A stretch of 53,525 nucleotides of DNA from an uncultured Chromatiaceae bacterium (GTDB taxonomy: Bacteria > Pseudomonadota > Gammaproteobacteria > Tenderiales > Tenderiaceae). Shown one piece after another: positions 23,921 to 31,516 of this stretch; position 1 is the first letter of the stretch, and every line of letters starts with the position of its first letter. The stretch spans positions 7,332 to 60,856 of the forward strand of contig CALZIQ010000006.1 of the NCBI GenBank assembly GCA_945787735.1, read 5' to 3'. Both the position numbers and the translations under genes were made by a program. The notes beneath the pieces are model-generated. The model did no database searches, had not been told where the DNA came from, and saw only the letters and a program-made list of their open reading frames with translations.

Positions 23921-24853
23921 TTAAAGATAATAACCGAAGGCTTCGTTAAATTTGTCGTCGAACGACTGGCGGTCAAATCTGTGATTCTGTGTACCATGGT
24001 GCTCTATCTTGATAGCGCCCATTAAAGAGGCAAGCCGCCCCGTACTTTCCCAGTCCATGTCATGCATCAAGCCATACAGCAGGCCGGCACGATAAGCATC
24101 ACCACAACCGGTAGGATCAACCATTTGATCGGTTTTTGCCGCTGGAATATCGATACGATGCTGTTTGGTGTAGATATGCGATCCCTGCCCACCCATTGTC
24201 ACTATCAACGCCTCGACATACTCGGCAAGCTCATGCGGTGATTTACCGGTGCGATCTTGCAGCAACTGCATTTCGTAATCATTGACGGTGACCCAGGTGG
24301 CCTGCTCAACAAATCTCATCAGATCATCACCATCAAACATGGGCATGCCCTGGCCGGGATCAAAAATAAATGGGATATCCAGATCAGCCAACTGTTGGGC
24401 ATGTTCAATCATGCCGTCGCGGCCATCGGGTGAAACGATACCGATCTTCACACCTTTGGCATCACTGACCTGGTTTTCATGCGACATACCCATCGCACCC
24501 GGATGAAAGGCCGTGATCTGGTTATCATCCATGTCGGTAGTGATAAAGGCTTGTCCGGTATAGGCCCCTTCGATTATTTTTATATGCGCACGTGAAATAC
24601 GACACTCTTCCATCCACTCAGCATAGGGCAAGAAATCCGTACCCACGGTCGCCATCGGCAGGGGCTCGCCACCGAGCAGTTTCAAGTTATAGGCAATGTT
24701 GCCAGCACAACCGCCGAATTCACGCCGCATGTCCGGCACCAGAAAGGAGACATTCAACATGTGCACCTTATCCGGCAGGATGTGGTTCTTGAAACGGTCG
24801 TGGAAGACCATGATGTGATCGTACGCATAAGAACCACAAATCAGTGCAGACAT
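23921..24853 (-). CDS. PfkB-family carbohydrate/adenosine kinase
   Basis: FGGCAGNIAYNLKLLGGEPLPMATVGTDF...VTMGGQGSHIY...DPTGCGDAYRAGLLYGL; PfkB signatures. Confidence 0.88.
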   Translation of the reverse strand: MSALICGSYAYDHIMVFHDRFKNHILPDKVHMLNVSFLVPDMRREFGGCAGNIAYNLKLLGGEPLPMATVGTDFLPYAEWMEECRISRAHIKIIEGAYTGQAFITTDMDDNQITAFHPGAMGMSHENQVSDAKGVKIGIVSPDGRDGMIEHAQQLADLDIPFIFDPGQGMPMFDGDDLMRFVEQATWVTVNDYEMQLLQDRTGKSPHELAEYVEALIVTMGGQGSHIYTKQHRIDIPAAKTDQMVDPTGCGDAYRAGLLYGLMHDMDWESTGRLASLMGAIKIEHHGTQNHRFDRQSFDDKFNEAFGYYL

Positions 24854-24868
24854 AAACGTTCCCTTCTT

Positions 24869-25231
24869 TTAAACAAATAAAACAAACAACCAAATAAGCG
24901 TAGCATTGACAAAAGCGACAAACACCGCCGCAGAACCGATATCTTTGGCACGGCCTGCCAACGTATGCTGCTCAGGACCGATACGATCCACCACCGCCTC
25001 CACAGCAGAGTTTAACAGTTCGACCATCAAGACTAGAAGCAGACTGCCAATAAGCAACGCATACTCGATGCCGTCATCTCCCAACCACAAGGCGACAGGC
25101 GTCATGATCAACAATAAAAACAACTCTTGCCGGAAAGCAGCCTCATGCTTAAATGCCGCGCGAAAGCCTTTCCAGGAATAGCCTGTAGCATCAATGATAC
25201 GGCCTATTCCGGTTTTTCCGGGTTTAGGCAT
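24869..25231 (-). CDS. dgkA: Diacylglycerol kinase
   Basis: [35 protein letters not shown]...[43 protein letters not shown]; canonical DgkA. Confidence 0.95.
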
Positions 25232-26681
25232 TCGCCTCGTTATCTTTCCAAGTCAGATCCAACTCACGCGCGGCACGCACATCATCCAAACGACGTGAAG
25301 GAAGGGTATAAGGCGCACCTTTGAGCTGATCCACATTCTGCTCGGCTTCTAGCTTGATCTTAGTCATGGCTTCGACAAAACCATCCAACTCCGACTTGGC
25401 CTCGGTCTCTGTCGGCTCAATCAAAAAACACTCAGGCACCAGCAACGGAAAATAGGTTGTCGGTGCATGAAAACCATAATCCAACAGGCGCTTGGCAAAA
25501 TCCATGGCCGTGGCGTTCTGTTCCTTGGCTTGGCGTTTCAGCGTCAGAATGAACTCATGCGTGGCGCGCCGCTCAGGGTAGGCCATATCAAATCCAGCCT
25601 TTTTCAGCTGTACCATCATATAGTTTGCATTGAGCGTGGCGTACTCCGCCACACGCTCCATGCCTTCACGCCCCAGCAATCTGGCATACACATAGGCCCG
25701 CAACAACACACCAATGTTACCGGTAAAGGCAGACATGCGACCGATGCTGTGCGGACAATCTTTTTCAGTCAACCAGCGATAGTTATCTTCTTCTTTTGTT
25801 ACCATAGGAATAGGCAGGAAGGGGATCAAACGTTCGCTCACTCCAACAGGCCCCGCACCCGGGCCACCACCGCCATGTGGAGTGGAAAAGGTCTTATGCA
25901 AATTCATATGAATCACATCAAAACCCATGTCTCCGGGGCGCACCTTGCCAAGAATGGCATTCAGATTGGCGCCATCGTAATAAAGCAGACCACCAGCATC
26001 GTGCACAATTTTGGCAATCTCGGTAATTTTGCGCTCAAACACGCCGACCGTGGATGGGTTGGTCAACATGATGCCAGCAGTTTGAGGGCCCACTGCCGCT
26101 TTTAGCGCTTCGATATCAATATCGCCATCACCCTTGGTGGGGATTTCCTTCACCTTATAACCACACATCACCGCCGTGGCAGGATTTGTACCGTGGGCGG
26201 CATCAGGCACGATGATCTCACAGCGAGCATCATCACCACGCGACTCATGATAGGCGCGTATCATCGCCACACCGGCAAACTCACCTTGAGCACCCGCTGC
26301 AGGGATCAAGGAGACCTCTTTCATGCCGGTCACTTCTTTCAAGATCTGCTGTAGATCATAGAGACAAGACAACAAACCTTGGCCGGAAGAATCAGGCGCA
26401 TAAGGATGACGCCCGGCAAGACCAGGCAACAAAGCCATGGAGTTACAAATGCGCGGATTGTATTTCATGGTGCAGGACCCGAGCGGATAAAACTCGGTAT
26501 CGATGGAAAAATTCTTCTGCGACAAGCGGGTGTAATGGCGCACCACCTGCATCTCCGACACCTCTGGCAGGGTCGGGCGCGACTTGCGCTGCAGATTATC
26601 CGGGATGCCACTTACTTCAACCTTGTCGGCAACTTGTCCGGCCGCATATCGACCAGTACGAGATTGTTCAAAAATCAACAT
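25224..26681 (-). CDS. gcvPB: Glycine dehydrogenase (decarboxylating) subunit 2
   Basis: [20 protein letters not shown]...[23 protein letters not shown]...[22 protein letters not shown]. Confidence 0.96.
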
Positions 26682-26707: not shown

Positions 26708-27211
26708 TTATTCAGTTAAGGCGGCCATGGCGGCATCATAATCGGGCTCATCCGCCACATCCTTCACCAGTTCGACATGGATGACCTTGCCCTGCGCATC
26801 GATTACCACCACGGCCCGAGCTGTGAGGCCCGCCAACGGACCGTCCACCATCAACACGCCATACTCTTTGGCAAAGCGACGCGAACGCATCATCGACAGC
26901 GGCACCACGTTTTTTAGCTTTTCCACCCCACAAAAACGGCTTTGGGCGAAGGGCAAGTCGGCCGAGATCATCAGCATCACCACGTCATCACGGCCTTCGG
27001 CCAGTTGATTAAATTTCTTCGTCGAGATGGCACACACCGGGGTATCGAGGCTGGGCACGATGTTGAGCAAAACCTTTTTGCCGATGAAATCCGCCAGAAC
27101 CTTGTCCTGCAACTTGGCATTGACCAACTTGAAGTCCGGCGCTGAATTGCCCACTTCCGGCAGTTCACCGATGGTATTAACGGCCTGGCCACGCAGCTCG
27201 ATGCTTGCCAT
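26708..27211 (-). CDS. tpx: Thiol peroxidase (atypical 2-Cys peroxiredoxin)
   Basis: GNSAPDFKLVNAKLQDKVLADFIGKKVLLNIVPSLDTPVCAISTKKFNQLA...ISADLPFAQSRFCGVEKLKNVVPLSMMR. Confidence 0.95.
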   Translation of the reverse strand: MASIELRGQAVNTIGELPEVGNSAPDFKLVNAKLQDKVLADFIGKKVLLNIVPSLDTPVCAISTKKFNQLAEGRDDVVMLMISADLPFAQSRFCGVEKLKNVVPLSMMRSRRFAKEYGVLMVDGPLAGLTARAVVVIDAQGKVIHVELVKDVADEPDYDAAMAALTE

Positions 27212-27213
27212 AC

Positions 27214-28578
27214 TTATGCCCCCAGCACTTCTTTAAGGGCTGTAGCATAAACATCCAGGTCGGCCTCGGTCTTGGTCTCGGTAGCGGACACGCTGATGCA
27301 GTCATTCAGTTCGGGATAGCGGGTGGCCATGGCATAACCGCCATAGATACCTTTGGCGGCCAGCGTTTCCAACACCTCATCCACCGGCTTGGGCAGGCGC
27401 AGCACCACATCGTGAAAACTGGCTCCGGAAAAAACACGCTCAACTCCATTGATGCTGCACAGCTTGTCCGCCAGGGCTTGGGTATTGCTAATGCTTTGCG
27501 CAGCCACACGCTCCAAACCTTCCGCCCCCATCAAGGCCATGTAGATGGTTGACGCTGTCACCATCAAGCCTTGGTTAGTACAGATATTCGAGGTCGCCTT
27601 GGAACGGCGTATGTGTTGTTCTCGCGCTTGCAAGGTCAACGAAAAACCCGGCTTGCCGTCAAGATCAACCGTGCGGCCAATGATACGCCCCGGCAACTGA
27701 CGCACATGCTTTTGCTTGCAGCACATAAAGCCGTAATTGGGGCCTCCACTGGAAAGCGGAATACCAAGGGGCTGGCCTTCACCGCAGGCAATATCAACAC
27801 CATCAGTCCCCCACTCGCCCGGCGCCTTAAGCAGTGCCAGTGTAGTCGGATTAACGACGGCGATACTTATGCTGTTGTTTGCAGCAGCCCAATCGGTCAG
27901 CACATCCACATCTTCCATCACACCGAAAAAGTTGGGCTGCGGAATCACCAGGGCGGTAATGTCTTCGCCTTCGTATTTGCCCAGCTCACCCACCAGGGTC
28001 TTCCCCGCGTCGGCACAGTAAGGCAGCTCTACGATGGTGATACCCTGATTCTTGACGATGCCTGCCACCACTGCGCGATAGGCAGGATGCACCGTGCTCG
28101 GCATCAAAATGCGTTTCGATTTCGACTTACGATGCGCCCGCACCGCCATCAACACCGCTTCGGCTAGGGCCGAGGCGCCGTCATAAAGCGATGCATTGGA
28201 AACATCCAGACCGTTGAGGCTGGCCATCATAGTCTGGTATTCGTACAACACCTGCAGCGTGCCCTGACTGGCTTCGGCCTGATAGGGCGTGTAGGCACTG
28301 TAGAACTCACCACGGGTGGTGATATCCCACACCGCTTGCGGGATGTGGTGCTCATAGGCACCCGCGCCAATGAAGTTCAGGCCGATGGCGTCACCAGCCG
28401 CGCGCTCACGCATCAGGCGCGACACTGCCATCTCGTTCAGACCAACAGGCACCGCGTCACTTAGGCCATCAACACGCAAATCGGCCGGGATTTCATCAAA
28501 CAAATCGTCGATGCTGTTGATGCCGATAGCATCGAGCATCTCGGCGACATCCTGTTCGGTATGTGGAATAAAAGGCAT
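27214..28578 (-). CDS. gcvPA: Glycine dehydrogenase (decarboxylating) subunit 1
   Basis: [35 protein letters not shown]...[50 protein letters not shown]. Confidence 0.96.
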
Positions 28579-28742: not shown

Positions 28743-29138
28743 TTAGTGATCTTCTTCTGAGACCAATTCAGTATAGGCATCCGCATCCATCAGCTCGTCC
28801 AACTCACCCTCTTCAGACAGTTTGACCTGCATAATCCAACCGTCACCGTAAGGATGATGATTCACCAGATCAGGACTGTCGGCCAGTTCTTCGTTGACGG
28901 CAACCACTTCGCCGGTCACCGGGCTATAGACATCTGAGGCCGCCTTGACCGACTCGACCACGGCACACTCTTCACCCACGGACACCGCCGCTCCCACTTC
29001 AGGCACCTCAACGAAAACCATGTCGCCCAACAGCTCTTGGGCATGATCGGTGATACCAATCTTAACCGTACCGTCGCCCTGTACTTCAACCCATTCGTGG
29101 CTCTTGCTGTATTTCAGGTTCGCTGGAATATCGCTCAT
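28743..29138 (-). CDS. gcvH: Glycine cleavage system H protein
   Basis: [42 protein letters not shown]...[25 protein letters not shown]; includes the lipoylation lysine context ESVKAASD. Confidence 0.97.
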
Positions 29139-29223: not shown

Positions 29224-30318
29224 CTAACCCAGTTCGACACAGACTTTACCGTGACGGGCAAACGGCGGCTTGACCACTTTACACGCCAACTGTTTGCCGC
29301 GCACCTCAACCTGGCAGGTCTCGCCCACCTCGGCAGACACCCGCGCCAGCGCGATCGACTTGCCCAGGGTAGGTGAAAATCCTCCGCTGGTGGTTTCACC
29401 CACTGCCGTGCCGTTGAGTGTCACACTTTGATGCGCGCGCAACACACCCTTGTCCTGCAACACCAGACCGACGAACTTGCGCAGCCCGCCTTGTTGGCGC
29501 TGAGCCTCCAAGGCCTCGCGACCCGTAAATTCACGCTCGGCCGGCTCCCAGGCTACGGTCCAGTTCAACCCTGCTTCGAGCGGGCTGATGGTCTCATCCA
29601 TGTCAGAACCGTACAGATTCATACCCGCCTCCAGGCGCAGACTGTCACGCGCACCCAGGCCACAAGGGCGTACGCCCTGTTCGACCAACTTCTGCCACAT
29701 TTCAGATGCCTGACCGGCCGGCACCATAATCTCATAACCATCTTCGCCGGTGTAGCCGGTGCGGGCGATAAACAACTCGTCCGCCTTCATCGCAACAAAG
29801 ATCTTCAATGCGCTCGCCGCCTCGGCCTGCGCCGGACTCATAACGGCACGAGCCTTGTCGCGTGCATTGGGCCCCTGCACGGCGATCATGGCCAAGTCGG
29901 TGCGTTCGGTAATGCTGACATCAAATGCCTGCGCCTGCTGACCGGTCCATTCCAAATCTTTGTCATGGGTGGCAGCGTTTACCACCATGCGGAAATTCTG
30001 ATCATCTAGGTAATAGGTGATCAGATCGTCAATCACCCCGCCATCCGGCTTCAACATGCAGCTATAGAGCGCCTTGCCACTGAGCTTGAGTTTGTCCACG
30101 TCATTGGCCAGCAGCTTCTGCAAAAAGGCTTTGACACCCGGGCCTTGCAGATCCACCACGGTCATGTGGGAAACATCGAACATGCCGGCATCATTACGCA
30201 CAGCGTGATGCTCCTCGAGCTGAGAGCCATAGTTGAGAGGCATATTCCAGCCGGCAAAATCGACCATCTTGCCGCCACAGGCGACGTGCTGATCATACAG
30301 GGGAGTGTTATTCGGCAT
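29224..30318 (-). CDS. gcvT: Glycine cleavage system aminomethyltransferase
   Basis: [48 protein letters not shown]...[16 protein letters not shown]. Confidence 0.97.
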
Positions 30319-31252
30319 GGGTCAGTTCCTTTGATTGTTGTTCTGTTTTGTGATGGCCTGCTTCAGCATGATAGGACGAGCGCACCATCGGGCCCGCCTT
30401 GACCCAAGCAAAACCCATCGCCTTGGCCTCGGCCTCGAATTCATTGAACATTTCAGGCGCAATATATTCTTTCACCGGCAGGTGATAACGGCTTGGACGC
30501 AGGTACTGGCCCAACGAGACGCGAGCCACACCGGCAGCGCGCAAGTCGTGCAGCACAGCCATGACCTCATCTTTGGACTCGCCTAAACCCAGCATCAGGG
30601 CCGACTTGGCCTCGACACCGGTTTGCTTGGCAGCTAGTGCCAACAAATCGAGTGAGCGTGCGTAGCGGGAACCCTTACGCACCTCTTGGTAGAGACTGGG
30701 CACGGTTTCGACATTATGCCCCCAAACCAGCAGACCGCCATCAACGGCTTGACAGATTTTTTCGATGGCATGCGGCTGGTCTTGCTGAAAATCGGGGGTG
30801 AGGATCTCAAGACCAATGTCGGCATTCTCTTGACGCAACAGGCGTAAGGTCTCAGCAAAGATGCCCGCGCCGCCGTCGGCCTGGTCGTCGCGATTGACCG
30901 AGGTGAGTACCACATAACCCAGCCCCATGTTTGCCACCGCCTCGGCGACTCGGCGCGGTTCATCACCATCGAGCCAGGTGGGGCGGCCGGTTTTGACATT
31001 GCAAAAGCCGCAGGCGCGGGTGCAGATATCACCTAGCAGCATGAACGTAGCGGTGCCACGGCTCCAACATTCGGCCCGGTTGGGACAGCGCGCCTCTTCG
31101 CAGACAGTGTTCAGGGCCTGGTTTTTGACCGTGGCGGCAGTCTTGCCATAGGCTGCCTCACCACCCAGCTGCTGGCGAATCCAGCCCGGCATACGGCCAA
31201 CATTGGGTTTGCCGGAATGATCAAAAACAGGAATGTATGCAGTATTCGACAT
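30308..31252 (-). CDS. lipA: Lipoyl synthase
   Basis: [41 protein letters not shown]; both LipA cysteine motifs. Start re-assigned to ATG 31252 ([10 protein letters not shown]); the ORF-track extension to 31516 is the riboswitch leader read through as coding. Confidence 0.95.
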
Positions 31253-31281
31253 CTGAATCGCAACCTTATAAAACAAAAAAA

Positions 31282-31315
31282 GGGCGACAGGTAAATGTAC
31301 ATTTACCTGTCGCCC
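31282..31315 (-). terminator. Riboswitch expression-platform terminator (perfect 34-nt palindrome + U7)
   Basis: GGGCGACAGGTAAATGTACATTTACCTGTCGCCC is its own reverse complement; followed on the minus strand by TTTTTTT. Confidence 0.85.
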
Positions 31316-31470
31316 CTCTGTCCGGTCACCTGAGAGTTTATCCCCCTTCGGTGGGCCATAAACGGCCGCTCTCCAGAGCCAACCCCCTGCCACGGTCCTG
31401 AAGCCTGAGCGATTCCGGGCGGGTTGCGCCTTCGGCGGTGCCTGTTTGAAGACACACTCTCCCATGGAGG
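31316..31470 (-). promoter_or_regulatory. Tandem glycine riboswitch (two aptamers) upstream of lipA
   Basis: Minus strand: GGGAGAGTGTGTCTTCAAACAGGCACCGCCGAAGGCGCAACCCGCCCGGAATCGCTCAGGCTTCAGGACCG (aptamer 1), then CTCTGGAGAGCGGCCGTTTATGGCCCACCGAAGGGGGATAAACTCTCAGGTGACCGGACAGAGG (aptamer 2). Matches the GGAGAG / GCCGAAGG / CUCUCAGG / GGACAGAG signature. Confidence 0.93.
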
Positions 31471-31487
31471 GTTCGGGTTGAGACCGA

Positions 31488-31516
31488 ACTATACCGTCTG
31501 AAACATGTAAAACCAA
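31488..31516 (-). promoter_or_regulatory. Candidate sigma70 promoter for the riboswitch transcript
   Basis: Minus strand TTGGTT-17 nt-TATAGT, about 18 nt upstream of the aptamer-1 start. Confidence 0.5.

Follow-up and report, generated by a model that had tools for sequence, protein, structure and literature searches.

A tandem glycine riboswitch precedes a second lipA and the glycine cleavage genes in a gammaproteobacterium

Glycine riboswitches are known as regulators of glycine cleavage and transport genes and of a few further ones, and no paper found in the open literature searched names lipA as a target. The locus described here raises the question of whether glycine also controls a lipoyl synthase, the enzyme that installs the cofactor of the glycine cleavage system. 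It lies in a 53,525-nucleotide stretch of contig CALZIQ010000006.1 from an uncultured Chromatiaceae bacterium (Gammaproteobacteria), called the window hereafter, in which an earlier note had placed a tandem glycine riboswitch upstream of lipA and had made lipA the first gene of the gcv operon. Sun et al. 2013 (PMC3766115) describe twelve glycine-metabolism orthologues under glycine riboswitches, with lipA absent from the main text, and the passages searched in PMC2211319, PMC2258182 and PMC6944388 likewise do not mention lipA; these are open-literature sources only, and their silence is not proof.

The lipA leader and the genes behind it

Both aptamers were recovered when the Rfam glycine riboswitch model RF00504 was run on the window, aptamer 1 at 31383..31474 of the minus strand (60.8 bits, E 3.4e-10) and aptamer 2, in which P3 is shortened, at 31316..31378 of the same strand (44.8 bits, E 5.5e-6; model positions 9-86 of 94), each above the gathering score of 32 bits. 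The 3.06-Mb draft genome has no RF00504 match besides these two, and no other Rfam family was found in the window at gathering scores. The leader strand CAACCC (31475..31480, minus strand) is complementary to GGGUUG in the inter-aptamer linker (31380..31385, minus strand) and makes with it the P0 leader-linker (kink-turn) helix, the whole riboswitch including the P0 leader strand covering 31316-31480. A P0 match of at least 5 bp occurs in 21 of 31 related leaders, and the helix covaries among them with both sides changed (e.g. UCAACC/GGUUGA and UCGACC/GGUCGA). The leader thus holds two aptamers over threshold, a P0 helix and an expression platform before the first gene, which makes it a tandem glycine riboswitch.

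A terminator and a plausible promoter had also been claimed for this leader, and both held up. The terminator scan predicted an intrinsic terminator, a perfectly palindromic hairpin with a T-run behind it, at 31278..31319 of the minus strand. Its foot (AGAG) shares nucleotides with the 3' strand of P1 in aptamer 2, and leader folding gave z = -3.35 with the terminator and +0.47 without it. The putative promoter, sigma-70-like and recognised by eye (31488..31516, minus strand), consists of TTGGTT (31516-31511), a 17-nt spacer and TATAGT (31493-31488). Its -35 box is weak, with 3/6 consensus matches, and a consensus promoter scan omitted it; the core TTGG...GTATAGT is kept in six genomes of the genus.

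The first gene, lipA (30308..31252, minus strand), encodes a 314-aa lipoyl synthase of the gcs-associated clade (TIGR00510, 349.9 bits, cut-off 310.25). The cysteines of both motifs are intact (C51, C56 and C62 in CX4CX5C; C77, C81 and C84 in CX3CX2C), and the C-terminal RSSY is present (R291, S292, S293 and Y294). The gene had been given as 30308-31516; the stop at 30308 was right, while the start was not. The 402-aa ORF beginning with TTG at 31516 was rejected as lipA, as promoter, riboswitch and terminator take up its first 88 codons; the TTG sits inside the -35 box, and homologues support the ATG at 31252.

On the same (minus) strand come gcvT (29224..30318; TIGR00528, 463.8 bits), gcvH (28743..29138; TIGR00527, 181.6 bits), whose H protein carries the lipoyl-lysine motif ESVKA, gcvPA (27214..28578; NF001696, 593.2 bits), the thiol peroxidase gene tpx (26708..27211; NF001808, 223 bits), which stands between the genes of the two glycine dehydrogenase subunits, and gcvPB (25224..26681; NF003346, 738.2 bits). 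LipA and these five products each exceed the cut-off of their NCBIfam model. The gene order agrees with that first proposed, as does the 11-bp overlap between lipA, ending at 30308, and gcvT, starting at 30318. With GcvT, GcvH, GcvPA and GcvPB all encoded on one strand, the block is a glycine cleavage system operon. It continues on the minus strand with a dgkA-like gene named by eye (24869..25231; no NCBIfam match), whose position is conserved in most related loci read through, and ends with a gene for a PfkB-family (ribokinase-like) kinase (23921..24853), whose NCBIfam ribokinase-type matches are below the cut-offs and whose position is also conserved. From the lipA/gcvT overlap and the short spacings we infer a single transcript that includes lipA. 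Since a terminator-like hairpin (23915-23897, minus strand; terminator scan) follows the kinase gene, the transcription unit probably spans lipA through that gene.

Recurrence of the arrangement in Gammaproteobacteria

A survey of how often RF00504 precedes lipA, as suggested at the outset, was run on 370 gammaproteobacterial genomes, at least 90% complete except G000. The search profile was built from nine gcv-linked LipAs, to which seven of the sampled genomes contributed, and its scores were bimodal, at least 454 bits in the listed gcv-linked copies and at most 357 in all others. The gcv-linked type is carried by 38 of the 370 genomes, in 14 families, a figure that includes G045, where the lipA copy is cut by the contig end. 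A glycine riboswitch (RF00504) immediately precedes the gene in 33 of these carriers (13 families), and in 26/31 when the seven profile-building genomes are left aside. Carriers without an upstream riboswitch belong to family f72 (G081, G195 and G283) and to family f90 (G206 and G358); a riboswitch overlooked there as weak was rejected, since an RF00504 search that admitted E values up to 0.1 gave no match. RF00504 itself is present in 159 of the 370 genomes, and lipA comes first in about 21% of the riboswitch-bearing ones. Directly after lipA stands gcvT in every locus with downstream DNA read, and the longer loci (about 20) continue as gcvT-gcvH-gcvPA-(tpx)-gcvPB-(dgkA)-(pfkB), L210 being an exception in which only gcvT was recognised. 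The arrangement is therefore recurrent and not a one-off; at 33 of 370 class genomes, it is widespread enough for a real regulatory design, in which one metabolite would control an enzyme plus the enzyme installing its cofactor.

Two side observations concern the composition of the block. Between gcvPA and gcvPB, tpx recurs in several related families, not in all, and in most related loci read that far the gcv block ends with a dgkA-like gene and a PfkB-family kinase gene.

The expression platform was also followed through the 31 riboswitch-lipA leaders. The motif CAGAGGGG, then a GC-rich arm and at least four T, was found in 26 of them, and in a separate stem count 26 of the 31 had a stem of at least 10 bp, versus 73 of 3100 shuffles. 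These two sets of 26 differ, as the 12-bp stem of G091 is not followed by a T-run, and G080 satisfies the T-run rule but has no long stem. The platform stems have 17 different 5' arms, their sequence being varied. Among the 31 leaders a recognisable stem or T-run is missing in G036 and G167 (both of family f27), G080, G291, G091 and G224. Several loci that have riboswitch and gcvT but no lipA show this platform too, so that the RNA is the shared part and lipA the variable one; and because several relatives keep riboswitch and gcvT without lipA, that gene is dispensable for glycine control. As riboswitch and terminator head the operon and the arrangement is conserved, lipA is very probably under glycine control, through a leader predicted to bind glycine.

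Origin, use and loss of the second LipA

The genome encodes a further LipA on contig C26 (C26:1189-2061; TIGR00510, 433 bits), the ORF of which overlaps the end of the upstream lipB to form a canonical lipB-lipA pair; the idea that the window lipA provides the cell's only LipA was rejected on this ground. One lipB serves both LipAs. The two LipAs are 44% identical, and both keep the CX4CX5C and CX3CX2C cysteines. In a tree of 128 LipAs, 43 gcv-linked sequences form one clade (SH-aLRT 100), well separated from canonical gammaproteobacterial LipA. Given the separate deep clade and the 44% identity, the window LipA is ancient and not a recent copy. A recent duplication of the canonical lipA was rejected on the two deep clades of the tree, which point to an ancient paralogue or xenologue, additional to the canonical LipA. 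These findings bear on the earlier proposal that a lipA-first operon couples H-protein lipoylation to glycine. The lipA gene does lie in a conserved riboswitch-headed operon, but the canonical lipB-lipA pair is present too, and H-protein lipoylation therefore need not depend on glycine.

Plasmid-borne relatives were considered as kin and rejected, the best five being about 50% identical and the two examined (L035 and L036), found near 2-oxoacid/acetoin dehydrogenase genes or in other contexts, lying outside the gcs clade. Most LipAs given by the survey of related loci came from other phyla and were about 50% identical; among these, only that of Brevibacillus adjoins recognisable gcv genes. In Brevibacillus parabrevis (Bacillota; L093), lipA is directly 3' of gcvT-gcvH-gcvPA-gcvPB; it does not belong to the gcs clade and represents a separate case of lipA linked to gcv genes.

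A LipA dedicated to the H protein only, with glycine gating the post-translational activation of the glycine cleavage system, would suit the fixed place of its gene beside gcvT and gcvH in 14 families and the deep separate clade, and it has a precedent in acoS, a lipA-like gene in the acetoin dehydrogenase cluster of Pelobacter (PMC3543383). We nevertheless regard it as unlikely in view of the lineages that have the gcs-type LipA alone. In family f90 (4/4 genomes) this LipA is accompanied by LipB, with no LipS2 over the cut-off and no LplA found in the four genomes, and 2-oxoacid dehydrogenase E2 proteins with E3-binding domains are kept, which the LipA must serve there. G307 also has a single, gcv-linked LipA together with LipB and an intact terminator, and no LipS2 over the cut-off; in G173 and G080 the gcv-linked LipA is again the only one found. 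G173 also has a LipS2-like match that, at 155 bits, stays under the cut-off, and lipB is absent from G080. As to regulation in f90, G206 and G358 are without the riboswitch, and the terminator is unrecognisable in G291 and G099. Being the only LipA found in some lineages, the gcs-type enzyme is implied to be able to serve 2-oxoacid dehydrogenases as well. The window LipA is thus probably a functional lipoyl synthase of general use, whose supply would rise together with the glycine cleavage system, and not strictly an H-protein enzyme.

Other lineages have lost the gene. G003, G008 and G009, of the same family as the window genome, keep riboswitch and gcvT without lipA. In G003 an in-frame lipA deletion has left a fused short ORF (L038:2300-2470) that still overlaps gcvT; in G009 the short ORF upstream of gcvT (L045) has diverged further but can still be recognised as LipA at its ends, and in G008 there is no lipA remnant ORF between riboswitch and gcvT. 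The ORFs of G003 and G009 are made of N- and C-terminal pieces of LipA, through independent frame-keeping deletions or assembly effects. On the GcvT tree operons with and without lipA are interleaved, a pattern that either a single old gain with repeated losses or transfer could produce. Such losses, two of them with in-frame scars, this mixing and the canonical lipA also present in most carriers could also describe a passenger, a redundant lipA co-expressed without regulatory benefit and heading for loss. This account appears quite improbable, since 33 genomes in 13 families retain intact catalytic residues and the conserved leader, an unlikely outcome were the gene neutral.

A model for glycine control, and its counterparts

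Drawing on the RNA, the terminator, the gene order, the second lipA and their conservation, all of which are present in the sequence, we think it likely that a glycine-responsive riboswitch, most likely an ON switch, controls with its terminator a unit made of a second LipA and then the complete set of glycine cleavage genes. At low glycine the terminator would form. As glycine goes up, the two aptamers would close, the P1 of aptamer 2 would disturb the terminator foot and polymerase would read into lipA-gcvTH-gcvPA-tpx-gcvPB. Newly made H protein would be octanoylated by LipB, and LipA made from the same unit would insert the sulfurs. Lipoylation capacity would in this way rise with the H protein and would not compete with what the housekeeping LipB-LipA route provides for pyruvate and 2-oxoglutarate dehydrogenase; we infer this to be the purpose of the extra LipA. 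With its foot overlapping aptamer-2 P1, the terminator agrees with a switch that is OFF by default and turned ON by glycine, the type known from B. subtilis gcvT. Disturbance of the foot is put forward as the step by which glycine may prevent the terminator, with the caveat that aptamer-2 P1 leaves room for the 15-bp terminator core to form next to it, so that simple mutual exclusion fails to explain the glycine effect. The CCCUC/GAGGG pairing seen in the window fold was rejected as a conserved antiterminator for the terminator foot, as it is not kept in the relatives of the genus.

An OFF switch for lipA, or a switch acting mainly on translation, seems very unlikely to us. The sequence by itself gives no direction, symporter genes provide examples of glycine switches of the OFF type (see the discussion in PMC13104608) and f27, G080 and G291 are without a clear terminator, but the terminator is the default fold, no alternative antiterminator is evident and the known gcv-operon switches, those of B. 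subtilis (PMC5666159) and N. gonorrhoeae (PMC13104608), are ON switches.

For the model of a glycine-ON switch ahead of lipA and the gcv genes, a wider meaning can be offered tentatively, as a possibility that we hold to be rather doubtful. Glycine, via an RNA switch, would set the supply of the cofactor-making enzyme along with that of the apo-enzyme, and across Gammaproteobacteria a dedicated LipA paralogue would have evolved together with the glycine cleavage system; where it is the sole LipA and the terminator is intact (e.g. G307), the switch would also gate the lipoylation of pyruvate and 2-oxoglutarate dehydrogenase. The natural variants that have lost lipA, the riboswitch, the terminator or the canonical lipA make the retention of the second LipA directly testable.

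Among known systems, one counterpart is the canonical lipB-lipA pair of C26, whose LipA has the same two iron-sulfur cysteine motifs as that of the window, whereas its gene adjoins lipB, has no riboswitch upstream and belongs to a separate deep clade. The nearest solved structure is that of lipoyl synthase 2 (PDB 4u0o and 4u0p; E 6e-78, residues 21-302), by its name also a second LipA. AcoS of the Pelobacter carbinolicus acetoin dehydrogenase cluster, likened here by its published description, has similarly diverged from housekeeping LipA and is encoded beside a lipoyl-dependent enzyme, while its target complex and its regulation differ. The tandem gcvT riboswitch of B. subtilis, an ON switch that acts on transcription (PMC5666159), shares with the window two aptamers, a leader-linker kink-turn helix, a terminator beside aptamer 2 and a gcv operon under its control; unlike in B. 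subtilis, the first gene of the window operon, in Gammaproteobacteria, is lipA, followed by gcvT-gcvH-gcvPA-tpx-gcvPB.
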